Both the position numbers and the translations under genes were made by a program. A stretch of 64,000 nt of DNA from positions 16,901,850-16,965,849 of the forward strand of contig NC_088304.1 of assembly GCF_032854445.1 (NCBI RefSeq). Direction: 5' to 3'. Shown in pieces: positions 1-57,960 of the stretch (positions within the stretch are counted from its first letter, which is position 1; every line of letters begins with the position of its first letter). The notes below the pieces were generated by a model. The model had not been told where the DNA came from, did not search any database, and saw only the letters and a program-made list of their open reading frames with translations. The stretch is from Liolophura sinensis. Taxonomy: Eukaryota > Mollusca > Polyplacophora > Chitonida > Chitonidae.

Positions 1-1085
1 GATAGAAATAATCCATCACGAAGAATAGTTATGGAACAGTGCAATAACTAGAAAGGGAAAAAATCCTTCACGAAGAATTGTCATGGAACAGTGCAATAAA
101 CAAAGATGGAAAGAATCCATCACGAAGAATTGTCATGGAAGAGCGCAATAACCACAGATGGAAAGAATCCATCACCAAGAATAGTCATGGAACAGTGCAA
201 TAACCACAGATGGAAAGAATCCACCACGAAGAATGGTCATGGAACAGTGCAGTAACCAAAGATGGAAAAAATCCTTCACAAAGAATAGTCATGGAACAAT
301 GTAATAACCACAGACGGAAAGAATCCATCATGAAGAATTGTCATGGAACAGTGCAATAACCAGAAAGGGAAAAATCCTTCACGAAAAATAGTCATGGAAC
401 AGTGCAATAACCACAGATGGAAAGAATCCATCATGAAGAATGGTCATGGAACAGTGCAATAACCACTGATGGAAAATATCCACCACGAAGAATTGTCATG
501 GAACAGTGCAATAACCAAAGATGGAAAGAATCCATCACGAAGAATTGTCATGGAAGACGCAATAACCACAGACAGAAAAAATCCATCACGAAGAATTGTC
601 ATGGAACAGTGCAACAACCAAAAAGGGAAAAAATCCTTCACGAAGAATTGTCATGGAACAGTACCATAACCACAGATGGAAAGAATCCACCACGAAGAAT
701 TGTCATGGAACAGTGCAATAACCAAGGATAGAAAGAATCCATCACCAAGAATTGTCATGGAAGAGCGCAATAACCACAGACGGAAAGAATCCATCACGAA
801 GAATAGTCATGCAACAGTGCAATAACCAGAAAGGGAAAAAATCCTTCACGAAGAATTGTCATGGAACAGTACAATAACCAAAAATGGAAAGACTCCACCA
901 TGAAGAATTGTCACGGAACAGTGCAATAACCAAAGACAGAAACAATCCATCACGAAGATTAGTCATGGAAGAGCGCAATAACCACGGATGGAGAGAATCC
1001 ACCACAAAAAATAGTCATGGAACAGTACAATGACCAAAGATGGCAACAATTAATCTGGAAAGACAGTCATGAAACCGTACAATGT
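1..1085. repeat. Minisatellite, unit about 52 bp
   Basis: About twenty tandem copies of a roughly 52-bp unit, recognisable by the recurring blocks tggaacagtgcaataacca and aatccatcacgaagaatt. Units differ by substitutions and by a variant that has agaaagggaaaaaatcc in place of the cagatggaaagaatcc block. The array runs off the left edge of the window and fades out near 1085. Short reading frames inside it on both strands follow the repeat and are not taken as genes. Confidence 0.93.
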
Positions 1086-5524: not shown

Positions 5525-5903
5525 TTAAGGTACTTTGAATGGACATAATCATTAGCCAGGTGCTGTCTTTCACTTTAATGCTAAATATCATACTCACAAT
5601 TATTTCACTTATAACATGGTGGTTAACTTCATCAGTGGAGTGCAAATCATAAATCGCTGGCCTTGGCAAGTTTCTGACGCACTTTCTCAAGTGTGACACA
5701 CAAATTTGCACACTACATTGTTGACAGACGAGTGGTCTTCAAGAAAAGTAAAATGGCCAGACGAGTACCTACAAATACCCTCTCTAAAGTATGGTTTGAA
5801 CCTGCAGTTCAAGTGTCCTAGCCAATGACAGGCAGGCACTTTTAACCCCTAGACCATGGCCCGATCCCCTTGAGTAGAAAGAATGATGCCTCACAATTTT
5901 GAA
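5525..5903. other. Intergenic, nothing recognised
   Basis: Unique-looking AT-rich sequence between the TTAA element and the poly-C minisatellite. No gene, SINE or inverted repeat is visible. Confidence 0.4.
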
Positions 5904-6560
5904 GTATGCAAGATGTTAATGTGAGGTATGCAAGATGTTAATGTGAGTTATGCAAGATGTTAAAGATAGGTATGGCAAAGTGTCTGTCCTGCCCCCCACT
6001 GATACTAACCAGGTTCTACAAGATGTTAACGTTAGGTATGGCAAAGTATCTGTCCTGCCCCCACTGATACTAACCAGGTTCTACAAGATGTTAATGTTAG
6101 GTATGGCAAAGTGTCTGTCCTGCCCCCCCCCCCCCCCTGATATTAACCAGGTTCAACAAGATGTTAATGTTAGGTAAGGCAAAGTATCTGTCCTGCCCCC
6201 CCCCCCCCCAACTGATACTAACCAGGTTCTACAAGATGTTAACATTAGGTATGGCAAAGTATAAGTCCTGCCCCCCCCCCCCCCCCCCCCCAACAGATAC
6301 TAACCAGGTTCTACAAGATGTTAATGTTAGGTATGGCAAAGTGTCTGTCTTGCCCCCCCCCCCCCCCCCCCCCCCACCCCACTGATACTAACCAGGCTCT
6401 AAAAGATGTTAATGTTAGGTAGGGCAAACTGTCTGTCCTGTTTCCCATTGATACTGACCAGGTTCTACAAGATGTTAATGTTAGGTATGGCGAAGTGTCT
6501 GTCCTGATATCCCCCCCCCCCCCACACACACACACACACTGATACTAACCAGGTTCTACA
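5904..6560. repeat. Minisatellite with internal poly-C tracts
   Basis: Eight or nine copies of a unit built from actgatactaaccaggttc, acaagatgttaatgttagg, tatggcaaagtgtctgtcctg and then a run of C. The C run grows from about 5 to more than 20 along the array, and near 6515 a (CA) run follows it. Unit length therefore varies from about 65 to 100 bp. Proline- and glycine-rich frames in it follow the repeat and are not called as genes. Confidence 0.92.
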
Positions 6561-7364
6561 AGAAGCTCCAGAATCTCCTGTATGTGGGTCTGTACAAACT
6601 GTAAGTGGCAGTGTTCATCCAGGGTCTGAGGATAGAAGTCAAAACTCAAAAAATATGCATTTTATTTTTATCTCAACGATATCTTACATTAGAGTACCAT
6701 TTACAACAGACATTTGACCTACACAAAAATCAAGGGGGACAACTGCATCTTTCCAGCTACAGGTATGAGTAAGCATTCAAATTTCTTTAAGTTGGATGTA
6801 AATTTCCACAAATATGTTCACACTGCTTCAACCCGACATTTGAATAATGCCTACTTTGAGGAAGGCATGTTACATGCTCTTGTATTTCTACACTATTGGC
6901 AAGATGACTTCAGTCGTGTCACTGTTTGACAAATGTGTTGGATTAATGACACAAGATAATTCATTGTTCCAAGCTACATCCATGTAGCAGGCTGATCTGA
7001 ATGTCAACATATTTACATTGCTCAAGACAACAACCATGTCATAGTATACAGATGTGCAATTGCTTTTTTTTCTTTTTTTCGGAATAAACATACATTAATG
7101 CTGTAATCCACATCTCTCTTTCTGTATTGCCATCTGGACGATAGCATCCTTCATAAATATCTATTTTATACATGTTACTATGCACTATGTGTAACTTTGA
7201 TGTCCTAATTCCTCTGTCAGTTTTGTTTTTCACAAGAAATCCTAATCCAAACTAAAAGGTTTTGTGTCATGTAGTTCATTACAGCTAGACATCATGTAAA
7301 AAGATCAGTTACACAAAAGGCTCCCCCAGACCTACAGATTCCTGCTCAAATTTCTAGATGAAAG
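6561..7364. other. Intergenic, nothing recognised
   Basis: AT-rich DNA between two minisatellites. AATAAA-like signals occur on the minus strand near 6665 but no coding exon could be tied to them. Confidence 0.35.
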
Positions 7365-8957
7365 TTTGTCTGTAGAGCTACCGTCTCACATGTAAATTAG
7401 AGCTCGATGAGCCAATAGAGTATGTCTGTAGAGCTACTGTCTTACATGTGCCTTAGAACTTAATGGACCAGTGTGGTTTGTCTGTAGAGCTACTGTCTTT
7501 ACATGTACCTTAGAACTTAATGGACCAGTGTGGTTTGTCTGTGTGTGGTTTGTCTGTAGAGCTACTGTCTTACATGTACCTTAGAACTTAATGGACCAGT
7601 GTGGTTTGTCTGTAGAGCCACAGTCTTACATGTAAATTAGAACTTAATGGACCAGTGTGGTTTGTCTGTGTGTGGTTTGTCTGTAGAGCCACTGTTTTAC
7701 ATGTACCTTAGAACTTAATGGACCAGTGTGGTTTGTCTGTAGAGCTACTGTCTTACATGTACCTTAGAACTTAATGGACCAGTGTGGTTTGTCTGTAGAG
7801 CTACTGTTTTACATGTACCTTAGAACTTAATGGACCAGTGTGGTTTGTCTGTAGAGCTACTGTCTTACATGTACCTTAGAACTTAATGGACCAGTGTGGT
7901 TTGTCTGTGTGTGGTTTGTCTGTAGAGCTACTGTCTTACATGTACCTTAGAACTTAATGGACCAGTGTGGTTTGTCTGTAGAGCTACTGTCTTACATGTA
8001 CCTTAGAACTTAATGAACCAGTGTGGTTTGTCTGTAGAGCTACTGTTTTACATGTACCTTAGAACTTAATGGACCAGTGTGGTTTGTCTGTGTGTGGTTT
8101 GTCTGTAGAGCCACAGTCTTACATGTACCTTAGAACTTAATGAACCAGTGTGGTTTGTCTGTGTGTGGTTTGTCGGTAGAGCTACTGTTTTACATGTACC
8201 TTAGAACTTAATGAACCAGTGTGGTTTGTCTGTAGAGCTACTGTCTTACATGTACCTTAGAACTTAATGAACCAGTGTGGTTTGTCTGTAGAGCTACTGT
8301 CTTACATGTACCTTAGAACTTAATGAACCAGTGTGGTTTGTCTGTAGAGCTACTGTCTTACATGTACCTTAGAACTTAATGAAGCAGTGTGGTTTGTCTG
8401 TAGAGCTACTGTTTTACATGTACCTTAGAACTTAATGAACCAGTGCGGTTTGTCTGTAGAGCTACTGTCTTACATGTACCTTAGAACTTAATGAAGCAGT
8501 GTGGTTTGTCTGTAGAGCTACTGTTTTACATGTACCTTAGAACTTAATGAACCAGTGCGGTTTGTCTGTAGAGCTACTGTCTTACATGTACCTTAGAACT
8601 TAATGAACCAGTGTGGTTTGTCTGTAGAGCTACTGTCTTACATGTACCTTAGAACTTAATGAAGCAGTGTGGTTTGTCTGTAGAGCTACTGTTTTACATG
8701 TACCTTAGAACTTAATGAACCAGTGTGGTTTGTCTGTAGAGCTACTGTCTTACATGTACCTTAGAACTTAATGAAGCAGTGTGGTTTGTCTGTAGAGCTA
8801 CTGTTTTACATGTACCTTAGAACTTAATGAACCAGTGCGGTTTGTCTGTAGAGCTACTGTTTTACATGTACCTTAGAACTTAATGAACCATTGCAGGTTG
8901 TTTATAGAGCTACTGTTTTACATGTACCTTAGAACTTGATGAACCAGTGCGGTTTTC
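7365..8957. repeat. Minisatellite, unit about 58 bp
   Basis: About 27 copies of a unit containing gtgtggtttgtctgtagagc, tactgtcttacatgtacctt and agaacttaatgaaccagt. Some units carry an extra local duplication of tgtgtggtttgtc. The left half mostly reads atggaccagt and the right half atgaaccagt or atgaagcagt, so variants cluster by position, as expected from local unequal exchange. Confidence 0.95.
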
Positions 8958-27283: not shown

Positions 27284-28030
27284 ATGCTGCCTCGTACGGT
27301 GAGTAAAACTTTGGTTTTACCATTTGAAGACAAAAATGTGAAGGTAATTAATAACCTGGTGCCAGTTGTGCAAATCTTCTTCAGACAATTCAGCAAGTGT
27401 AGACTGTACTCCTCATCAGACATCCACTTGCAACCACAAAGAAGCAATCTGTACGTGGACAATCTCCCTTCTGCCTTCATACCAGCCTTTGCAGGACACA
27501 GTGCAGAAGATGTAGCTAAACTGCAGGAGTTTGTGCAGGCTAGTCATCGATTGTTTATCATAACAGGTGCAGGCTTGTCTACAGAGAGCGGAATTCCAGA
27601 CTATCGCTCTGAGGGGGTAGGTTTATATGCCCGTAGCAACCACCGACCAATCAACTACCAAGATTTCCTGAAGAGTGCCAAAACTCGGCAAAGATACTGG
27701 GCCAGAAATTTCACTGGGTGGTCGAGGTATTCGTCCTTCCAGCCTAACCTGGCACATGTCACACTAAGCCGCTGGGAAGCTGCAGGAAAGTCTCACTGGC
27801 TTGTGACACAAAATGTGGATGGTCTGCACATAAAAGCGGGCAGTGTAAACTTGACTGAACTTCATGGTAGCTTGTACAGAGTTGTTTGTCTCTCTTGTAA
27901 GAGTAAAATGAGACGACATAAACTGCAGACAATCTTGGAGTCACTCAATCCGCATTGGAAGAAAGAATGTGTAGAGATAGCCCCAGATGGAGATGTCCAG
28001 CTGACCCAAGAGCAGGTGGAAGGATTTGTG
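27284..28030 (+). CDS. SIRT4: SIRT4 exon 1
   Basis: Encodes residues 1-249 with the NAD-binding loop, catalytic His and first zinc pair. ATG at 27284 is the first in-frame ATG; the frame stays open upstream only to a TTG at 27269. Donor GTAAAT, phase 0. Confidence 0.93.
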
Positions 28031-31000
28031 GTAAATATTTTATATATATAGATGTATGTATATATATATATTTGTGTGTACAGTATGCAAATTTACGGAT
28101 ATTATTGATGTTTTACGCCATATGCAAGAAGCCATGTATTCAAAAAACTTAACATTGCAAGGTGGTGGATGCAATTGCCCTGGATACTATTTTACATTAA
28201 TCGCACAGACAACACCATGTGGTGTGGTTTTTCCTAGTGAGGGGAAGAGCTTACATGACAATAATGTGAAATGAACCATCCACATATACACTCAGACAAC
28301 CCAGAAGTGCAGATTTGCGTCTGCACAAATTTCTTTGATACAAAAACTGCATCTACAGCAATCTGTACTGTCGTAATATTGAAAAGGTGGATAATATGAG
28401 GTAATGTGATTGCTTTAATAAGAAGACTTGTCTTGTGACCTGTGTAACAAAGTTTTCAGAAGCATTTAGAATTTGGTGTCAAAGGCTGGATGGATATGCT
28501 GGTAGTTTCATGGTATGTTGTCACACATGTATGTACACATATATATGGCGCATTAAAGCAGAATGCCATGCCATCACATGCTATATCTGACTGTAGAACT
28601 TTCAAAATAGCTGTCAACTTGACAGGTCTGCATTGTGGATGGCTGAGTTGTTAAAGTGTCTGCCTTGTATGTGAGTGACTGGTTTCATCATGAGTCGAAC
28701 ATACATAACTACCTGCAACGTGGATACTTAATTTCTGTGTTACTTTCAGTGTATAGGTCTTAAGCAGGGCATAGGTCGACTTGCAATCGTAAGAAAGTAT
28801 GTACAACTTGATGCAGTAGACCTACGCGTAGGACTTACGTCAAAAACTTTGATAAAACCTTACGATCATGAGGAACTGGTGTTGTCTCATCAGATTCAGC
28901 TTTGGTGCACGTAAGGTCAGCTACGACCGGTGGCAACTGTGAGCAGAGGCTAAGGTTATTTTCTGCCTCATTGGTTGACTCAGGGGTTGCGGTATTCATA
29001 GTTTAACGCTTGCATGTGATCCACTACCTAATGCATCGCTGGGAGCAACTGTGACCAACTGGATGCAAGCATGCGTAGATGGACGGAACTGCTGAGTCGG
29101 CAAGTGTGTGCAGATGCTAAAACCAGTATCCGATTGTATGCTTCCAGTCGCAAGTTCGATCTACGCCCGGTTTCAACTATAGCCTTGTATCAATGGGCTG
29201 TGAATGGGTGAGAGGCAGCATTCCTGTAGTGATTACCTGAGAGGTATCTCACCAAAGGAGTGTTGGTCATCTCTGTTGTGTGCCATGTGGCTGGTGGTGG
29301 TTACCTGGACTATGTTTGCAAATTCACAATTCAGATATGTTAAAGTCAGTGAAATGACCTGACTGGTGATGGATATTCATTCAAATGGTTAAATTACAGG
29401 ATTGTGTGGCCATTAAGATTTGAGGCCTTTAGAAAAATAGTGTATTGTAAAGTTAGATACGTTTTGAATTCACAATGTTGTTAGACTGGTCGGACTTGAT
29501 ACATGTGTTTTTCATCTTTCTGGATTCAAACTTAGGTTCCACCCTGTGCAGAATGTGGTGGGATATTAAAACCTGACATAGTGTTTTTTGGAGACAATGT
29601 TGCCAAAGCCACAGTGCAGCTGCTGTTCAACAAACTGCAAGAGAGTGACTCCGTCCTGGTCCTGGGATCATCTCTACAGGTTTGTTATATATCCCTACAT
29701 ACTTCTTGTAAACTTTGGCTCCTCATCTAGTTCAAATAAACTGCTGTGTCAAGCTCATTGGCAGCAATAGAGAGTTCCAGCCCCTAAGTGAGAACACAGT
29801 CACATTTTGCTCCTTTAATCTCACTTGCCATGTGCATTTAAAGAACATTAATGTTATTAATTTATCTGTGGAGATATCTTATTTTTTATCAACTTTTTTG
29901 TTCTTTCCTTTTTCTATTCTGATTTTCAATACCTGCAATTCTTGATCACATTTCCGTACTCCTCACAGTAACAGCAGTGACGGTGTACCAGTCCTTCATT
30001 ATTTCCACTTGAGCCATACATAGGGGAATTCCCATGGCGGTTACTGTAAATCTTCAAGCTTTTCGACCTCTAAAGCACTTTCTTTTCAGTAGAATTTAAG
30101 TATGCAATTATTATCAAAATGAAGGTCGAAATGATTTGCATGTGTCACTGAAGATGCAAGCTTACTAAAACTGTGCAAATTAGCTCTCTACACTTCATGG
30201 TTCTCTCAGACTGTTTTAAAATATTAGTCGCAGAGGTGGTTGAAAGGTTGAAGAATTAGGGTATATACACTGGCAGTAATATTCCCCGAAAAGAGCCAGT
30301 GACAGGGGACTCCCCATGGCTATTATATACAGTGTCAGTAAGATACATGTTTATACAGGTTACTGACATGTATGGCTGTTTTATACACTGTCAGTAAGAC
30401 AATGTTTATGTTTACAGGCGTACTCTGTCAACAGGTTACTGACATGAGCCAGGGGAATCTGCATGGCTGTTTCATACACTGTCAGTAAGACAATGTTTAT
30501 GTTTACAGGCGTACTCTGTCAACAGGTTACTGACAAGAGCCAGGGGAATCTGTATGGCTGTTTTATACACTGTCAGTAAGACAATGTTTATGTTTACAGG
30601 TGTACTCTGTCAACAGGTTACTGACATGAGCCAGGGGAATCTGCATGGCTGTTTCATACACTGTCAGTAAGACACTGTTTATGTTAACAGGTGTACTCTG
30701 TCAACAGGTTACTGACATGAGCCAGGGGAATCTGTATGGCTGTTTTATACACTGTCAGTAAGACACTGTTTATGTTAACAGGCGTACTCTGTCAACAGGT
30801 TACTGACAAGAGCCAGGGGAATCTGTATGGCTGTTTTATACACTGTCAGTAAGACAATGTTTATGTTTACAGGTGTACTCTGTCAACAGGCTACTGACAT
30901 GAGCCAGGGGAATCTGTATGGCTGTTTTATACACTGTCAGTAAGACAATGTTTATGTTTACAGGTGTACTCTGTCAACAGGCTACTGACATGAGCCAGGG

Positions 31001-31578
31001 GAATAGGTATGGCTGTTTTATACACTGTCAGTAAGACAATGTTTATGTTTACAGGCGTACTCTGTCAACAGGTTACTGACATGAGCCAGCGGAACAGGTA
31101 TGGCTGTTTTATACACTGTCAGTAAGACAATGTTTATGTTTACAGGCGTACTCTGTCAACAGGTTACTGACAAGAGCCAGGGGAATCTGTATGGGTGTTT
31201 TATACACTGTCAGTAAGACACTGTTTATGTTTACAGGTGTACTCTGTCAACAGGCTACTGACATGAGCCAGGGGAATCTGCATGGGTGTTTTATACACTG
31301 TCAGTAAGACAATGTTCATGTTTACAGGCGTACTCTGTCAACAGGTTACTGACAAGAGCCAGGGGAATCTGCATGGGTGTTTTATACACTGTCAGTAAGA
31401 TACATGATTATATCTATATTTACAGGTGTACTCTGCCTACAGATTCCTGGCACGGGCCAGAGACAGGGGAATCCCCATGGCTGTGGTGAACATTGGGCCA
31501 ACCAGAGCAGATGCCATCGCTGACCTCAAAATTGATGCAAAATGCAGTGAGATTTTACGAGACATTCAAGTTCACTGA
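27284..31578 (+). CDS. SIRT4: SIRT4-like mitochondrial sirtuin
   Basis: Three exons (27284-28030, 29536-29679, 31426-31578), GT-AG and in phase, giving 347 residues; human SIRT4 has 314. Visible motifs: NAD-binding GAGLST.SGIPDYRS (residues 95-109), TQNVDGLH (175-182), the catalytic His194 in TELHGS, zinc cysteines Cys202/Cys205 and Cys253/Cys256, FFGDN (266-270) and GSSLQ (293-297). The order YARS..RPI..QDF and QRYWARNF is specific to the SIRT4 class. The first 60 or so residues are rich in basic and hydrophobic residues with few acids, consistent with mitochondrial import. Family members are NAD-dependent lipoamidases, ADP-ribosyltransferases or deacylases acting on mitochondrial enzymes. 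Intron 2 holds a minisatellite that copies the exon 3 boundary. Confidence 0.96.
28031..29535 (+). other. SIRT4 intron 1
   Basis: No SINE or further exon is recognised. It begins with a short TA-rich stretch. Confidence 0.7.
29536..29679 (+). CDS. SIRT4: SIRT4 exon 2
   Basis: Acceptor caaacttag. Encodes residues 250-297, VPPCAECGG to LVLGSSLQ, with the second zinc pair. Donor GTTTGT. Confidence 0.95.
30340..31425 (+). repeat. Minisatellite of the SIRT4 exon 3 acceptor, ~91 bp
   Basis: About twelve copies of a 91-bp unit filling the end of SIRT4 intron 2. Each has a tttatgtttacag acceptor, then about 56 bp resembling the start of exon 3 (gtgtactctgtcaacagg, then gagccaggggaatctg and atggctgtt), then cactgtcagtaagac, which contains a GTAAGA donor. 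The copies differ from the true exon by shared changes, such as loss of six bases after gccag, so they amplified from one diverged copy. Confidence 0.93.
31426..31578 (+). CDS. SIRT4: SIRT4 exon 3
   Basis: Acceptor atatttacag. Encodes residues 298-347, VYSAYRFLARARDRGIPMAV through NIGPTRAD to a TGA stop. Identified as the true copy among many upstream look-alikes because only it continues into conserved SIRT4 sequence. Confidence 0.95.
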   Translation: MYSAYRFLARARDRGIPMAVVNIGPTRADAIADLKIDAKCSEILRDIQVH

Positions 31579-31667: not shown

Positions 31668-32515
31668 TAACTGGCTCCATCTAACATGATGTCACAGGAT
31701 GAAAATGGTTAAATGCCTTGAGGATTATTAGAACTGGCTCCATCTAACATGATGTCACAGGATGAAAATGGTGAAATGCCTTGAGGATTATTAGAACTGG
31801 CTCCATCTAACATGATGTCACAGGATGAAAATGGTTAAATGCCTTGAAGATTATTAGAACTGGCTCCATCTAACATGATGTCACAGGTTGAAAATGGTGA
31901 AATGCCTTGAGGATTATTAGAACTGGCTCCATCTAACATGATATCACAGGATGAAAATGGTGAAATGCCTTGATTATTATTAGAACTGGCTCCATCTAAC
32001 ATGACATCACAGGATGAAAATGGTGAAATGCCTTGAGGATTATTAGAACTGGCTCCATCTAACATGATATCACAGGATGAAAATGGTGAAAATGCCTTGA
32101 GGATTATTAAAACTGTTTCCATCTAACACGATATCACAGGATGAAAATGGTGAAATGCCTTGAGGATTATTAGAACTGGCTCCATCTAACATGATATCAC
32201 AGGATGAAAATGGTGAAATGCCTGGAGGATTATTAGAACTGGCTCCTTCTAACATGATATCACAGGATGAAAATGGTGAAATGCCTTGAGGATTATTAGA
32301 ACTGGCTCCATCTAACATGATATCACAGGATGAAAATGGTTAAATGCCTTGATTATTATTAGAACTGGCTCCTTCTAGCATGATATCACAGGATGAAAAT
32401 GGTGAAATGCCTTGAGGATTATTAGAACTGGCTCCATCTAACACGATATCACAGGATGAAAATGGTGAAATGCCTAGAGGATTATTAAAACTGGCTCCAT
32501 CTAATATGATATCAC
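31668..32515. repeat. Minisatellite downstream of SIRT4, 63-bp unit
   Basis: About thirteen copies of a 63-bp unit (aactggctccatctaacatg, atgtcacaggatgaaaatgg, then tgaaatgccttgaggattat). It begins about 90 bp after the SIRT4 stop, so it may lie in the 3' UTR or just beyond. As 63 is divisible by 3, the minus strand is open in stretches with a 21-residue period. Confidence 0.93.
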
Positions 32516-32955
32516 AGCTATTATGGATTATTAACATTGACACCATGGTTTGAGGATTGTGAAATCAACCAAAGCTATCTTAAAGGAATACAGAATCTCT
32601 TCTGATTCACTGGTGGAAGATATAGACAAGTCCAGACTGTGCTTTGTTTAAGCTGAATTTTTAGTATGGCAGATTTATTTAAGCATGAACAAAGCTGCAG
32701 AGTTTAACCCAGGAATCCTATCTCCACTGTCAAAGAATCAGTTACGATTCTGTATCCCTTTAATACTTGATATAACACATATGGTTTTAATAGATGAAGG
32801 CCTTGTAGGAGCAATAAGAAGTATATCAACAATTCTGATGTTTACATTACACCATAGGTCATTGGTTTGGGTACTTTTTTCTCCACTCATGACGCCAACT
32901 GACCATACATAAGTGAAACGGTGTAACATTTTACAAAAATCAGTCAACCACTTAA
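32516..32955. other. Intergenic, nothing recognised
   Basis: AT-rich DNA between the 63-bp array and a TTAA element. No gene is supported. Confidence 0.4.
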
Positions 32956-37902: not shown

Positions 37903-40900
37903 CTGGTGAAGAGAAACTGATGTTGAATATTTGTTCATATTTTACATGTTATACATCAAATGCAAGACTACACAAATGACACAATGACTAGACATGTCAA
38001 TCCCTAGGGTCATTTTCTGGTCACCCACACCCTATGGACAATTGAAACATGATTTCCAGATCACTCTGACAGAGGCATAACAACAATGACAGTGAGAGCC
38101 TGAGAATTTTTGAGAGAGGTGAGCAGGAGTCTTATTGCAAAATGGTCACCGGCGTTTTAGACTTTGACCAACAAATACATCAAAGAACTCAACAATAGTC
38201 AAAAAAATTAAATTGGTCTCACCCTGAACTCTTTGCCAGACAACTACAATAGACCATGTTTTACAGATTACAGCCTTTGTTACGATATTTACTTGTTAGT
38301 GCGCAAATACATGATGTTTTTATAAATATTCACTTCATTCTATGTTGCAGGCACTTTGGTCAGTGTCACAACATCAGGAATCGTTTAAAATATACCTAGC
38401 TAACCAGATTTATGCATTCATGGTTTTTAGTATGCTTGGGAAAATGTTAAGTTGGAGCTGCGTTCAACTAAGTGCAGTGTTCCCTTCTTGCCACTAAAAT
38501 TTTGGCAAAAATGCTAAAGGTTATCCACCAGACTACTTTCACTTCCATCCAGCATAAACATCATACCACTGCTGCCTAGTTTGCTTAACCATCGTCACAA
38601 GACATCAATACGGGAGTTTTGAGTTTACGTTCTATAGCTGATCATAACACATATCCTACTGTACCATGTGATCTGTCAGAAAAGATAGGCAACTATTTTT
38701 GATTACATTTACGACACATGGGCACCTTAGGATTTAGAATATATGAACAATGGAGACAGTTGTGCTGCTGAACGTTTGTGAGCTTAAGGAGTTTCTGAAC
38801 AAAAGCAGTGCCGTTTCTGTATCCAGAACATGGTGAGACACGCGATGGTAAATTAATAACAAGAAAAGGTTCCTTAACATTTTTGACAGGTCACATTATT
38901 GCAGCTGGATTGGTCAATGTAAAACTGGCAAATTTTACGGTCTGACCTACAGCTGTGGACCTACAACACATGGTTTTCTTACTTAATTCGCACTAGAGTT
39001 AGACATGTTTGACGAGATGTGTTTGATATCTACTATCACAGATAATGCAACAGTAGCTTATCTAGCAGAACAGCATTCAGCTTAAAATGTATATCTACAT
39101 TCTACATTAGGAAATTTCCCTTACCTGAGGAGCAGCCTCAAATATAGTGAAGTCCCTCTGTAAATGTTCATCCAGTTCTAATATAGCGGCTACATTTCCA
39201 CATCTGACAACAACAACATACGGGATATGAGCCGATTTTGAAGGTTTAGCGTCAAGATTTATTATTTACTCATAATTAGATACCCCTGTACATAGTCATA
39301 TGACAACATTAAAACAAAAATGAAAAAAAAAAGAGAGATTCGCAATTTAGTTCAGTATTAGAAAATTCTTCCCCATGTGGTTGTAACAACAGGTCAGTGA
39401 AGAAAAATGGAGTCAGTTTCTTCAAGATTCCACAAGATTTGGCACTCAAAAAGGCATGGTTTCACCATAATATCACATTGTATATAGCTCAAAATACTCT
39501 GCACTATGTGTTTCTGATCCATTACTCATTACAGCCATTGAATAACTCCAAAATATACACATCAATGTACAAAAAAAATCAGAAGAATTCAATTAAGAAG
39601 GCAATAAGCGCTGGAATTTGCACAAATAAGTTCTGAAAGTTTCTATTGGGCCCCTATACTGGATATATTGTAAGTGTGTTTCCCTGTATTGGTAACTGTA
39701 CCTGTAGCAGTAGTTGGGAGCAGACCACACAGTGAGCACAGTTTCACTGAAGTGCCATTTGTATCCCTCCATCACCAGCTGGTGAGCACGACAAATTAGG
39801 TCTATATCATTAGCTGCGTTGAACGTGGCCACAACATCACTGCCAAAAAGATACCCCGCTCCTCGAGGACTCACGCCCCAACCATGCATGTCTGAAAACA
39901 AGAATAACAACTTTATTCATTGAATATAAGAGTTCATAACACTGAGCGCTCTGCCTCAGACTACATCCATGCCAGAAAAAGCCCAGGCATTGGCTACCTC
40001 CTTTCAGTTCACATACTGTCTTAATTAAGCCAATGAGGCACAACTGTCAATCTCACCGATATCAGTGGTCACATTAAAGACAATTAATGAAAATTTGTGT
40101 CGGTCAACACTCCTTAAACCACTGACTGAATGTAACAATACATCTCACATTGGGCTGTCATGGGGGACACACACACAGCTGTTATTATGACAACAGAACC
40201 ATGTAATCCACTAACCTTCAGGGTCTGACAACAGCAGATCTCACACTGGGCTGTCATGGGGGACACACACAGTTGTTATTATGACAACAGAACCATGTAA
40301 TCCACTAACCTTCAGGGTCTGACAACAGCAGATCTCACACTGGGCTGCCATGGGGGACACATACACAGTTGTTATTATGACAACAGAACCATGTAATCCA
40401 CTAACCTTCAGGATCTGACAACAGCAGATCTCACACTGGGCTGTCATGGGAGACACACACAGTGGTTATTATGACAACAGAACCATGTAATCCACTAACC
40501 TTCAGTCCACTAACCTTCAGGGTCTGACAACAGCAGATCTCACACTGGGCTGTCATGGGGGACACACACAGTTGTTATTATGACAACAGAACCATGTAAT
40601 CCACTAACCTTCAGGGTCTGACCACAGCAGATCTCACACTGGGCTGCCATGGGGGACACATACACAGTTGTTATTATGACAACAGAACCATGTAATCCAC
40701 TAACCTTCAGGATCTGACAACAGCAGATCTCACACTGGGCTGTCATGGGAGACACACACAGTTGTTATTATGACAACAGAACCATGTAATCCACTAACCT
40801 TCAGGGTCTGACAACAGCAGATCTCACACTGGGCTGTCATGGGAGACACACACAGTGGTTATTATGACAACAGAACCATGTAATCCACTAACCTTCAGGG

Positions 40901-43900
40901 TCTGACAACAGCAGATCTCACACTGGGCTGTCATGGGAGACACACACAGTGGTTATTATGACAACAGAACCATGTAATCCACTAACCTTCAGGGTCTGAC
41001 AACAGCAGATCTCACACTGGGCTGTCATGGGAGACACACACAATGGTTATTATGACAACAGAACCATGTAATCCACTAACCTTCAGGGTCTGACAACAGC
41101 TGATCTCACACTGGGCTGTCATGGAGGACACACACAGTGGTTATTATGACAACAGAACCATGTAATCCACTAACCTTCAGGGTCTGACAACAGCAGATCT
41201 CACACTGGGCTGTCATGGGGGACACACACAGTTGTTATTATGACAACAGAACCATGTAATCCACTAACCTTCAGGGTCTGACCACAGCAGATCTCACACT
41301 GGGCTGCCATGGGGGACACATACACAGTTGTTATTATGACAACAAAACCATGTAATCCACTAACCTTCAGGATCTGACAACAGCAGATCTCACACTGGGC
41401 TGTCATGGGAGACACACACAGTGGTTATTATGACAACAGAACCATGTAATCCACTAACCTTCAGGGTCTGACAACAGCAGATCTCACACTGGGCTGTCAT
41501 GGGGGACACACACAGTTGTTATTATGACAACAGAACCATGTAATCCACTAACCTTCAGGGTCTGACAACAGCAGATCTCACACTGGGCTGCCATGGGGGA
41601 CACATACACAGTTGTTATTATGACAACAGAACCATGTAATCCACTAACCTTCAGGATCTGACAACAGCAGATCTCACACTGGGCTGTCATGGGAGACACA
41701 CACAGTTGTTATTATGACAACAGAACCATGTAATCCACTAACCTTCAGGGTCTGACAACAGCAGATCTCACACTGGGCTGTCATGGGAGACACACACGGT
41801 TGTTATTATGACAACAGAACCATGTAATCCACTAACCTTCAGGGTCTGACAACAGCAGATCTCACACTAGGCTGTCATGAGGGACACACACACGGTTGTT
41901 ATTATGACAACAGAACCATGTAATCCACTAACCTTCAGGGTCTGACCACAGCAGATCTCACACTGGGCTGTCATGAGGGACACACACACGGTTGTTATTA
42001 TGACAACAGAACCATGTAATCCACTAACCTTCAGGGTCTGACCACAGCAGATCTCACACTGGGCTGTCATGAGGGACACACACACGGTTGTTATTATGAC
42101 AACAGAACCATGTAATCCACTAACCTTCAGGGTCTGACCACAGCAGATCTCACACTGGGCTGTCATGAGGGACCCACACACAGTTGTTATAATGCGAATG
42201 GAACAATGTAATCCACTAACCTTCAGGATCTGACCACAGCAGATCACACATTGGGTTGTCATGAGGGACACACACACAGTTGTTATAATGCGAATGGAAC
42301 AATGTAATCCACTAACCTTCAGGGTCTGACCACAGCAGATCTCACACTGGGCTGTCATGAGGGACACACACACAGTTGTTATAATGCGAATGGAACAATG
42401 TAATCCAATAACCTTCAGGGTCTGACCACAGCAGATCACACATTGGGTTGTCATGGGGGACACACACACAGTTGTTACTATGACAACAGAACCATGTAAT
42501 CCACTAACCTTCAGGGTCTGACAACAGCAGATCTCACACTGGGCTGTCATGGGAGACACACACAGTGGTTATTATGACAACAGAACCATGTAATCCACTA
42601 ACCTTCAGGATCTGACAACAGCAGATCTCACACTGGGCTGTCATGGGAGACACACACACAGTTGTTATTATGACAACAGAACCATGTAATCCACTAACCT
42701 TCAGGGTCTGACAACAGCTGATCTCACACTGGGCTGTCATGGGGGACACACACGGTTGTTATTATGACAACAGAACCATGTAATCCACTAACCTTCAGGG
42801 TCTGACCCCAGCAGATCACACATTGGGTTGTCATGAGGGACCCACACACAGTTGTTATAATGCGAATGGAACAATGTAATCCACTAACCTTCAAGATCTG
42901 ACCACAGCAGATCTCACACTGGGCTGTCATGAGGGACCCACACACAGTTGTTATAATGCGAATGGAACAATGTAATCCACTAACCTTCAGGGTCTGACCA
43001 CAGCAGATCACACATTGGGTTGTCATGAGGGACCCACACACAGTTGTTATAATGCGAATGGAACAATGTAATCCACTAACCTTCAGGGTCTGACCACAGC
43101 AGATCACACATTGGTCCATCATGAGGGACCTCCTGTTTTCTGTCAATAGCTCGTATCTGATCTAGGTTTTGTATTGATGGAGACAATCCACCATGAACAC
43201 AAAAAATCTGAAGATGAAAAAAGGGTTACTCATGTTTCAGGCTGTACAGTCTCTCATTCATATAATGATGTTAGTAACAAATGTATGAAAGGGAATTGAA
43301 GAATTAAAAGCTGAATCTGTCAGGATAGTCAAGTATTAAAAAAGAACACAAAACAAGTTCACTTCTTTGATACATGTACAGGTTCGCTAACACAAAGTGT
43401 ATAGTTTTAAGTAAAAAGAGGAAAGATATTCCAAACAATTAGAAGAAAATATCCATTTTTGAGGCATAATTTATGTCCTTGACAGTCTCTCCATTTTATG
43501 CATACATTTATTTCTTGTTTATGGTTGGAATTATTTGGAAGTGACATCATCAATGAGCATACTGGTAACTCAGGACCAGCTTAGGCCCCCAATCTGGGCA
43601 ATTTCACCCAACTAAGCAGGAAAATTGTAGTTAAGGCCATTGTTATGCCCCAAAAAGGGGTAATTCTCTATGCTAAGCCACATCATATATTCTGTATTAA
43701 AGGATTAGTGTCCAGATTTATCTACTGGTCCTATCTATCTGAAAACTTCAAACCTCATCTAGAACTAACTTCATGGTCCTTCCAGGACCTGTTTTACAAT
43801 GGTATGCAGAACAACCAACCATTTCATGGTGAAACTCCATGTTTGTGGTCACTCTTGTAGCTTTTTTAACACTGAACTAAATGGCGAAGCCCTGAAAGCT

Positions 43901-46900
43901 TGTAAAGGTTGGACTTGTGGGACGTAATTCAGCAGGGACTACCCACTCTTAACAGAATAAATGCATGAATCCAGCCTTATTATCTAGTGATTTCAAGTGC
44001 CATAATACACATATTAATGTACCCTTTTTCCAATATTTCTTTGTCACTCAATTTAATAATATATAGAGGTGTGTCTAATTACCGCTAAATAATAAATCTG
44101 GACACTAGCACTTTCACAAATAAAAACAAAGCGTATGACGTATCCTTTGATGTGACAAAACAATTGTTTGTTCAACTTAGGACACTTAGAACAGTTGATC
44201 TACTTCCCCATACCTTCCCGTCAATTATAGCTGAAAGACTGAGGTAATCAAATATTTCTGTGCAGCATCTCCAGACTGTGATAGAGCCATACTTGCGTAG
44301 ACATTCATCATAAAAGCCATACACCTGTGTAATCTGTCTGCTCTCGTGATTGCCACGGATCAGCGTTATTCTGTCGGGATAACGCACCTGTACAAAAAAA
44401 AACACCATCTTGTAAGTACACATCTATCTGAGTCTCCATGAATTGTCTTCTCTCGTGATTCCTACAGACCAGATTTATTTTGTCAGAATAAAAACCCTGT
44501 ACAGGAAATACACACTTAATTTTGTAAGTACACATCTCTTAGGCTCCATAATTTGTCTGGTCTAATGATTCCTATAAACAAGAGTTGAGATAAGTTAAGA
44601 GCCTGTACGATTCAAGATAAAGGAGGAGCTGGATAATTATTTATTTCATTGCTGTTTTATGCCATACACAAGACTATTATGAAGGCTGGATATGTTTTTC
44701 TTCATGTTTTCGGAGGCAAGAGCTTTGTAATTTAAGCATCTTTTAAGTAAAAAAATCATAAAAGCTAGTGCACTGCAGATAAAGACAAATTCCCGATGTA
44801 TGTCAGAAAAGCCTATAAACCTTGTCAATGTTTCACCACATATTGTCAACGTTAAACTGTCTTCATTCATCTAGCCTATACATATAAAAGCTCTCAATGA
44901 CATTTTTCTTGTTATAAATCTTAACTACACAAAAACTTAACCAAAGGGAAGGTAAAAAAAAAAAATGCTGATGTCTAGCCCCTTAAAGGGATGGATATAT
45001 ATGGAAACAACATTGGCATGATAAATGATCAAAGTAACAAATGCAATAAGCTGATCACATTTCATGATGGTCTGAAGCCAAGATACGGCATGTGAGCATT
45101 TACTTATGAAATCAAGGAGCAATATTTCACGTACACTCTACAAGATAAATGGTTAGCAAATGACCATCAAGAATGTGTTACTTACAGAGTAGAACATGTG
45201 TGCTGAGAGATACATCCATAGAAAATCTTACCTTTAATGCTAATAATAATAAAAATGTTTCTACGCTGTAAAATCCTCTATCCACAAAATCGCCCATAAA
45301 TAAGTAGTTTGTGTCCGGTACATCTCCTCCCACTTTAAACAGCTCCTTCAGGTCATAAAACTGGCCATGAATATCACCACACACCTGGCAGGTAAAAACA
45401 AAACATTGAACCGCCTTATTGACTGAGCACCACTTGAGAGCATCATAGAATGACTTCATTTAAATTATATTGGAAGGTTGGTGACAGATATTTATCAGTG
45501 AAATCCATCTGTAACTGACATTCATGTGTACAATTATTTGTTGCATAACAAGCGCTCAGAATAGGCACCTGTTCACAAGATAATACTGTGGCATGACTTC
45601 CATGTTACCCGAACAATCGTTGGCCGTTTCAAGGCCTGCAATGTACAATGTAGTATTTGTACTAGTTGTTAGGACGATGGATCGAGACAGTGTTTGAAAT
45701 TTACAGGTTTGTAATTGTCATCGCCGGACTTGATACTTTCTTTGCATAAATTCATGGATATATTTAAAGATGGCTAGCTGGGAGATCTGCACACCTCGGT
45801 GTGAGTGGCTTGACCTCACATGGCATAGATCAGGGACCACAGCTGCCATGCAGGGTCATGAAATCTAGACAGGCGAAACTTTACATCATTTACCGTATTC
45901 CCATTTACCATTCATATTTGTTATGACATACATTGGCTTGAGGCAAATCCAACAAGTTGAACATGATTCAAACAAAACAGATAACACACAAGCAGTGGCT
46001 CGCTTTTTTCTTTCTTTATACATTACAACACTAGGTTTGCTAAAAGAAATTAAAAACCGAAGTGGAACTGGACACCCCCAGGCTCCATACATGTATGTAC
46101 ACTATGCAAGTATTTTGTGCTTGTGAAAATGTGTGAAGAGCACATGGCATAGAATGGCCTATGCTAGCCTCCAATGCATCACCCGACTTACTGTGACAGG
46201 CGAGTCCACCCTCTGTACATTGCTCTCCTCAATCAAAATCTCTCTGGCTTTGGCGCATAAGGCCTTCACCTCGCTCTCTTTGATAATTTCGCATCTCCGA
46301 AGTTGTTCTATTTGCCTGTAATACATACAGTACACATTCATTTCATACCACATTCTGATGCCTTTAGTTCTCTGTACAAAATATTAAACTGTTTATAGAT
46401 TCATAACTTGAGAGGTGAAAATATATTAGAATGTCACCACAGTCCACAATAACAACAGACGTTCAGGAAAGGCAGGAATAGTTTTCAAACTAACTAGTTT
46501 GTTACCAGAAACTTTTGGTGTATATTCACAGTTTCACAATACGAATTGGTTACTAGTAATTGATTCTGAATCTCTAATTTCTCAATCATAGCCTAAACTT
46601 ACAATGGACATGCACTTGAACGAGGAATCAGCCACGACAGTCAGAAGTTGATCAGAAATTACTCTTTGGTCGGCTATGTTGTTAATATTGAGTATCGCCC
46701 TCAAATTAACGCGAAGTACAAATACTTGCCTTAGGTAGACTGTCAGTTAGTACTTTTCAACTCTGTTTGAAAGATGTTCAATTTAACTGCATCAAAAAGA
46801 TGTTACAAGAATATTTTCACGTGTTTGTTGTTAGCTACTGAATCAATATGGTGCAAAACTCTTTGAAAATGAAGGCAAGAAAAGATATTGACAAGTACAT

Positions 46901-57059: not shown

Positions 57060-57960
57060 CGTTGCCTACCTGCTATATTAGTCCCAGGTTCGAGCTCGAT
57101 AAAAACAGAAAAATAACCGGCATAAAATTTATATCCGATCGTTTAAGATTAACTAGTTCCGAATATCTTAAGAACCCGTAAACCCCAGAACGCACATAGT
57201 ACAAACATCTAATATCATCTAACTTGGAATTTGCGTGTGCGAACCTGCTGATTAATACACGTAAGTGTTTGGGTGTTACTGTGTCCTTCTTGTGTATAGG
57301 CACGCTCTTACCTATATACTGCAACATCTTTTGTTAACTAATAAACTCTGGTTTGCAGGGATTGTCATACACGGATATACAGTGGGCCCAGTCAGTGGCA
57401 AAAAAATGTTTGATTCACCACAGATAAATATGTACTAGGCTGTACTAAAGAACGCGATACGATGACCAGTCGCCAGTAAAGATGTGACGTCACAGCTAGC
57501 ACGCCACCATTCTCAACCGTTGTATGCTTTGGTGTAGCCGTAAGTAGTAGAAGGAACCCTCCCTTGTGACATAAAATCCGAGAGGTCACTAGTTAGTGTG
57601 CTCAAATTGCATGCGGTTCGTCTCTCTTTTAATTTTGGGCCAAAATACCGACCGGAAAAAGTCAAGTAGATATTCAACAAGATGTAGTAAACACACAACT
57701 GGACAGACACGAAGCACCAGCGGACAGGCAAGAAGTATAAGCGGATAGACAAGAAGCACAAACGGGCAGACAAGAAGTATAAGCGGATAGACAAGAAGTA
57801 TAAGCGGATAGACAAGAAGCACAAACGGGCAGACAAGAAATATTCTTACTCAGCGGGACAGACAAAGACGTAACGTCATCTGACCTAGGAATCCACACTA
57901 CCTGCAAGTCTATGTTATGAGTGTCACAAAAGTGCAACAAATTCAGAGCAACCTCCTGTC
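57060..57960 (-). mobile_element. DIRS-like tyrosine recombinase remnant
   Basis: On the minus strand: the end of an RNase H-like region (DLQVVWIPRSDD near 57890), a 21-bp tandem repeat, then a recombinase N-terminal region (SDFMSQGRVPSTTYGYTKA near 57550) and a core start (KKDTVTPKHLRVLISRFA, then GFLRYSELVNLKRSDI, near 57290-57130). Tyrosine recombinase plus RT/RNase H defines DIRS-type elements. The catalytic C-terminal part is missing. Confidence 0.65.
57690..57840 (-). repeat. 21-bp tandem repeat inside the DIRS remnant
   Basis: About seven copies alternating gacaagaagtataagcggata and gacaagaagcacaaacgggca. As 21 is a multiple of 3, the minus strand keeps a seven-residue period (LSIRLYF-like). 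Confidence 0.9.

Follow-up and report, generated by a model that had tools for sequence, protein, structure and literature searches.

The last intron of SIRT4 in the chiton Liolophura sinensis raises the question of how a gene comes to carry a row of near-copies of its own acceptor, and of how splicing settles on the true one. We addressed this in a stretch of 64,000 nt, hereafter the window (C10:16901850-16965849, in a genome of 609 Mb and 632 contigs). The available part of the genome paper describes this chiton as Liolophura japonica, and a correction notice, likewise available in part, concerns the species name. On the plus strand, SIRT4 coding exon 1 occupies 27284..28030, to which residues 1-250 of the annotated protein P0001 map at 100%. 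Exon 2 (29536..29679) ends in GSSLQ/gtttgt, a stroke marking the junction here and below; intron 2 (29680..31425, 1746 bp) is the last of the gene and hosts the array, and the true exon 3 up to the stop is 31426..31578. A separate 63-bp array of 13.5 copies (31669-32517) begins ~90 bp past the stop codon.

An earlier note on this DNA, made from the letters alone, described the end of intron 2 as ~91-bp copies of the intron's own 3′ junction, and so it proves. TRF finds a period of 91 (30369..31400, plus strand, 11.3 copies, 95% matches), and a unit aligned to exon 3 is identical at 42/51 bases with one 6-base gap, the alignment scoring 42 against a maximum of 30 among 1000 shuffles. The tandem array itself stands, but its count of about 12 does not: leaving the true site aside, there are 11. 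The motif AG/G[CT]GTACTCTG occurs exactly 11 times in the array, once per 91 bp, with exon-like starts from 30418 to 31328 (30418+91n). It follows tttacag, or ttaacag in two units. The true acceptor comes after the array, the last spacing being 98. At the left edge lies a degenerate junction copy (30295..30368, plus strand), in which 30295-30321 is closer to exon 3 (25/27) than the units are. Mean pairwise identity among the first ten units is 94.7% and, because they are this alike compared with 42/51 to exon 3, the units seem to evolve together and exon 3 apart. The homology to exon 3 supports the reading that the units were copied from the intron 2/exon 3 junction. Misassembly is frequent in tandem arrays, which would speak for an artefact. 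However, the units differ from one another, and the assembly is built, according to the available part of its publication, from PacBio HiFi reads averaging 8,347 bp, longer than the SIRT4 array; an artefact is therefore hardly credible.

What the earlier note missed is that the SIRT4 array does not stand alone: its class turns up repeatedly in this genome and has been named 'mirages' in amphioxus, where, in the available parts of PMC3087553 and PMC3902484, tandem repeats lie across exon-intron boundaries of both types. The SIRT4 unit spans an exon-intron boundary of its host gene, and evolution appears concerted inside the cluster with its edge excluded, as the identities of units and left edge given above indicate.

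Every unit had been said to hold an acceptor, and it is indeed intact in 11/11. Scores were taken from a matrix of 23 local acceptors, without SIRT4 exon 3 and one U12-like site, a small sample that limits it; on this scale the true site reaches 12.2 and the 11 copies 6.6-13.0, with 9/11 at 9.5 or above. The earlier note had proposed such scoring and named uniform skipping, with array acceptors far below the true one, as grounds for abandoning its reading. Because the array acceptors are intact and, by this small local matrix, not weaker than the true one, those grounds fall away. We also considered that the copies might be crippled by a short AG-free zone, which measures 17 nt compared with 24 nt before the true exon 3, and rejected this, since 5/23 other real acceptors have 17 nt or less.

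The downstream side of the unit fares differently. TCA/GTAAGA lies in 11/11 units at the reported 67 nt from the acceptor, but it is not the good donor it was taken for. With a donor matrix built on 21 donors it scores 2.8, below all 24 real local donors scored leave-one-out (4.2-10.7), and its U1 pairing is -4.5, where four real donors lie at -5.3 to -7.8. Because this site falls below all local donors, the idea of a ready-made 67-nt pseudo-exon is not supported. A second donor-like site, CAG/GTTACT, found in 8/11 units 17 nt past the acceptor, scores 7.1, in the middle of the real range, and its use would bound an exon of 17 nt instead. Moreover, adjacent units presumably cannot both be exons, because the pseudo-donor is only 24 nt from the next acceptor. 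Each of the 11 array acceptors runs into a stop, both on read-through and with a 67-nt exon, and the protein would be truncated. The TGA codons reported for several units are there, as the tenth codon in 7/11, with a stop further on in the other four.

A protein search returned P0001, the predicted 'sirtuin-4 ... isoform X2' of Liolophura sinensis, at 100% identity over 81% of the predicted-SIRT4 query. Joining exons 1 and 2 to position 31443 reproduces it exactly, with no array unit inside, so the predicted product skips the array acceptors to reach the real exon 3, as had been proposed. Its acceptor (CTACAG/ATTCC) lies 17 nt within exon 3 and gives a frameshifted tail; normal exon joining is expected to yield 347 aa. 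X2, itself a prediction, is the only SIRT4 product of this species among the matches listed. The normal C-terminus as query returned 8 proteins, none named from Liolophura sinensis, which is weak evidence given that the database is clustered. Another SIRT4 match, P0113 (92% identical over 64% of the query), ends just past exon 1 with a tail and is perhaps a related chiton transcript retaining intron 1.

The copied acceptors might be used in part, yielding truncated, NMD-prone mRNA, with copy number tuning expression; the scores of 9/11 copies at 9.5 or above beside 12.2 for the true site, and the early stops after all 11, agree with such a regulatory device. However, no array-derived product appears among the protein matches listed from the clustered database. 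Alternatively, RNA structure might hide the copies, a 9-bp perfect inverted repeat in the unit consensus (TTACTGACA/TGTCAGTAA) folding over each acceptor. Inverted repeats of at least 9 bp were reached in 119/1000 shuffles, and folding z-scores were -0.30 for two units and -1.78 for unit 11 with the true junction. We rejected the hairpin as not beyond shuffles, and regard a structural explanation as very improbable.

The SIRT4 array has counterparts in the window. An own-intron scan of four adjacent genes (25 introns of TBCCD1, ERP29, SIRT4 and a PPP4C-like gene) found that 5/50 junctions have copies in the intron they bound, scoring 62-150, whereas none of 1200 cross-intron comparisons exceeded 26; in the same scan ERP29 had no junction copies in its own introns. 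The PPP4C-like protein matches PP2A-type phosphatases in PDB, and PPP4C is a putative name for the gene. On the minus strand it carries an array of its own donor junction (40142..43129). The array's 32 donors, of which the true one (43081/43080) is the first, read CCTGAAG/GTTAGT or near variants; one is GTTATT, and one pair is spaced by 15 bp. For its exon VRYPDR... (true acceptor 44387) the acceptor junction has a single diverged copy at 44453..44537, minus strand, which scores 62, and a second, fainter copy is discernible by eye only. TBCCD1, identified via P0124, has donor arrays in two successive introns on the minus strand, one at 7364..8955 from exon 8988-8928 (27 copies including the true one) and one at 5900..6540 from exon 6625-6550 (8 copies including the true one). 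When the exons are joined at the donor nearest the exon in each array and one conserved exon is left out, the translation is exactly the annotated protein P0124.

Some features of the window and its flank stand apart from these arrays. The exon skipped in TBCCD1 isoform X2 (-6067 to -6216, locus L003) matches molluscan TBCCD1 proteins P0125 and P0128. The TBCCD1 intron from 12259 to 8988, minus strand, has what we take, by the general consensus, to be U12-type signals, namely the donor GATGA/ATATCCTTT and, a little upstream of the acceptor AG, TTCCTTGAC. A 52-bp array in a TBCCD1 intron (-672..1050, L003:9178-9850 plus window 1-1050) lies 88 bp from an acceptor and was rejected, not being its copy. 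A 21-bp repeat of 7 copies (57694-57839) lies within open frames.

Six gene regions elsewhere in the genome were picked from Pfam hit positions (myosin heads; Cpn60/TCP1) before their sequence was seen, other hit clusters being left out. Copy counts here include the true junction. Among the myosin regions, M1 (C1:26.64 Mb) has a donor array (31 bp, 6 copies) and M2 (C2:5.38 Mb) an acceptor array, tttgtag/GTTTGAGCG, of 32 bp and 51 copies at a myosin exon. M3 (C11:2.67-2.68 Mb) has a donor array of 82 bp and 13 copies, together with M3b, a donor array of 32 bp and 21 copies, 12 with intact GT, which we count as tentative because it is weak (score 37, ~9 exon bases). M4 (C3:25.73-25.74 Mb) has donor arrays of 121 bp (9 copies) and 124 bp (at least 3, to the locus end). 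The exons of M3a and M4a were absent from the HMM list and were recognised as myosin by eye from their frame. The CCT gene on C1 has a donor array (109 bp, 7 copies), and no junction array was found in that on C6. Junction arrays thus occur in 5/6 genes elsewhere, and in 8/10 including the window's four. The 12 cases comprise nine of donor type, one tentative, and three of acceptor type, one of them a single diverged copy, so that both 5′ and 3′ boundaries are represented.

A strict test that demands spanning of HMM exon ends gave 4/84 copied at a score of at least 34, one being an alternative-looking exon of M1; none of 966 sampled cross pairs reached 34, the maximum being 30. The M1 and M2 arrays do not pass, as the HMM end does not coincide precisely with the junction; a looser window and TRF brought them to light. 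The looser exon-end scan, at a threshold of 34, also raised candidates that we dropped: M1 exons near 5595 and 6691 of locus L023, apparently alternatives to one another, M2 13720, whose score of 51 comes from the intron side only, and M4 785 (score 34). Near 5595, 6091 and 6691, L023 has one myosin exon in triplicate, the similar versions resembling mutually exclusive exons.

Across 11 arrays, AG or GT is kept in 173/188 junction copies (true junctions counted except in SIRT4). Splice dinucleotides were changed at 15/376 bases compared with 11.0 expected from flanking columns, and 9/15 changes lie in the tentative M3b. Because AG/GT is no more conserved than its flanks, no selection on the copies is visible. 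This, and the presence of the same arrays in unrelated genes, argues against the regulatory device, which we consider unlikely.

It could also be that an ordinary minisatellite came to straddle a junction by chance. Minisatellites are plentiful, covering 13.5% of a sample of 19 ten-kb stretches (one a flank of the window, the other 18 at round-number positions). Of the intronic arrays among the four local genes, 1/5 does not derive from a junction, nor do several of those in the myosin regions, and short introns favour straddling (0.36 for PPP4C). However, junction arrays were present in most of the genes sampled. Moreover, we placed a founder segment anywhere on the intron for each of 6 array blocks (one array counting as two) among the four local genes, and four or more junction arrays among six had P 0.0011; without SIRT4, three or more of five had P 0.0055. 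The excess over random is moderate, and the placement test supports, but does not prove, a junction preference. A straddling by chance alone is improbable, though less so than the other alternatives to the mirage reading.

We return to the reading of the SIRT4 array as a mirage minisatellite of splice-silent junction copies, with splicing keeping to the exon-proximal one, which in our judgement is probably correct. One tandem duplication would have straddled the intron 2 acceptor and the start of exon 3, and the intronic copies would then have expanded and been homogenised by unequal exchange or slippage. Such a duplication would be silent as long as the copy next to the exon body is used, the others leaving with the intron. 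Because unused copies leave in this way, junction arrays may be tolerated where exon-internal duplications are not. In donor arrays the exon-proximal copy would be transcribed first and close the normal exon; in SIRT4 the machinery must favour the last acceptor, because the acceptor copies come first. A probable reason is poor exon definition of the copies, with a weak donor at 67 nt or a 17-nt exon at best, against definition of exon 3 as the terminal one. However, an extension of exon 3 into the array needs no donor, which could count against exon definition as the reason. What the data show is the anatomy, an origin by homology, the splice potential on a small matrix and the recurrence; the copying mechanism, the neutrality of the copies and the reason for the choice are our inference. 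The predicted TBCCD1 protein fits the expected splicing exactly, and predicted SIRT4 fits it through isoform X2 only. Counting against the mirage reading are the frameshifted X2 junction inside exon 3, the CAG/GTTACT site in 8/11 units and the moderate size of the excess over random placement.

More broadly, splice junctions of this chiton might be preferred birthplaces of minisatellites. Mirages would then be present in the majority of its multi-exon genes, introns would gain length at their ends, and splicing would repeatedly have to pick out the exon-proximal site from dozens of closely similar donors or acceptors, guided by exon definition and not by first come. We offer this tentatively, as a proposition nearly as apt to be right as wrong. 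Choice between competing splice sites is usually tested with engineered duplications. The chiton offers a natural test among near-identical sites, with ready-made series of 32 donors (PPP4C-like), 51 acceptors (myosin exon) and 12 acceptors (SIRT4), true sites counted. These cover both polarities and differing copy numbers, and RNA-seq from five tissues (SAMN35319765-69) is reported in the available part of the published record. The polarity of SIRT4 is informative because its copies precede the true site. The arrays also bear on intron lengthening and on whether junction duplication feeds intron gain.

Among the literature matches listed (titles and abstract openings), none reports a mirage in a mollusc, the molluscan PMC7931591 lying outside this check, and the available text of the chiton genome paper makes no mention of minisatellite, tandem repeat or intron. 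In the part of PMC6627357 available, human F7 intron 7 carries highly homologous 37-bp repeats with a 5′ splice site in the first, and only the most upstream is normally used. The PPP4C-like and TBCCD1 donor arrays are like this, whereas SIRT4 presents the acceptor form, its true site being the last copy and not the first. Intron gain by duplication of an AG/GT proto-splice site, discussed in the available part of PMC3087553, likewise involves tandem duplication carrying splice signals; in SIRT4, however, an existing intron is lengthened and no new one is in evidence. Amphioxus mirages, as far as the available portions of PMC3087553 and PMC3902484 go, keep AG/GT in many repeats, splice regularly and vary in length. 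Their hosts include Adh, the globins BflGb6 and BflGb9, TnC and PGBD5, and their length is unstable, even somatically, in the parts of these sources available. By its sequence the SIRT4 array is an acceptor-type mirage, of a kind already known; new are the mollusc host and the commonness in a small sample. The chiton differs from amphioxus in this host, in series reaching 51 acceptors with the true site counted, and in that 8/10 examined genes carry one, so that the kind seems common in this mollusc. Mirages thus seem to occur outside the cephalochordates as well.
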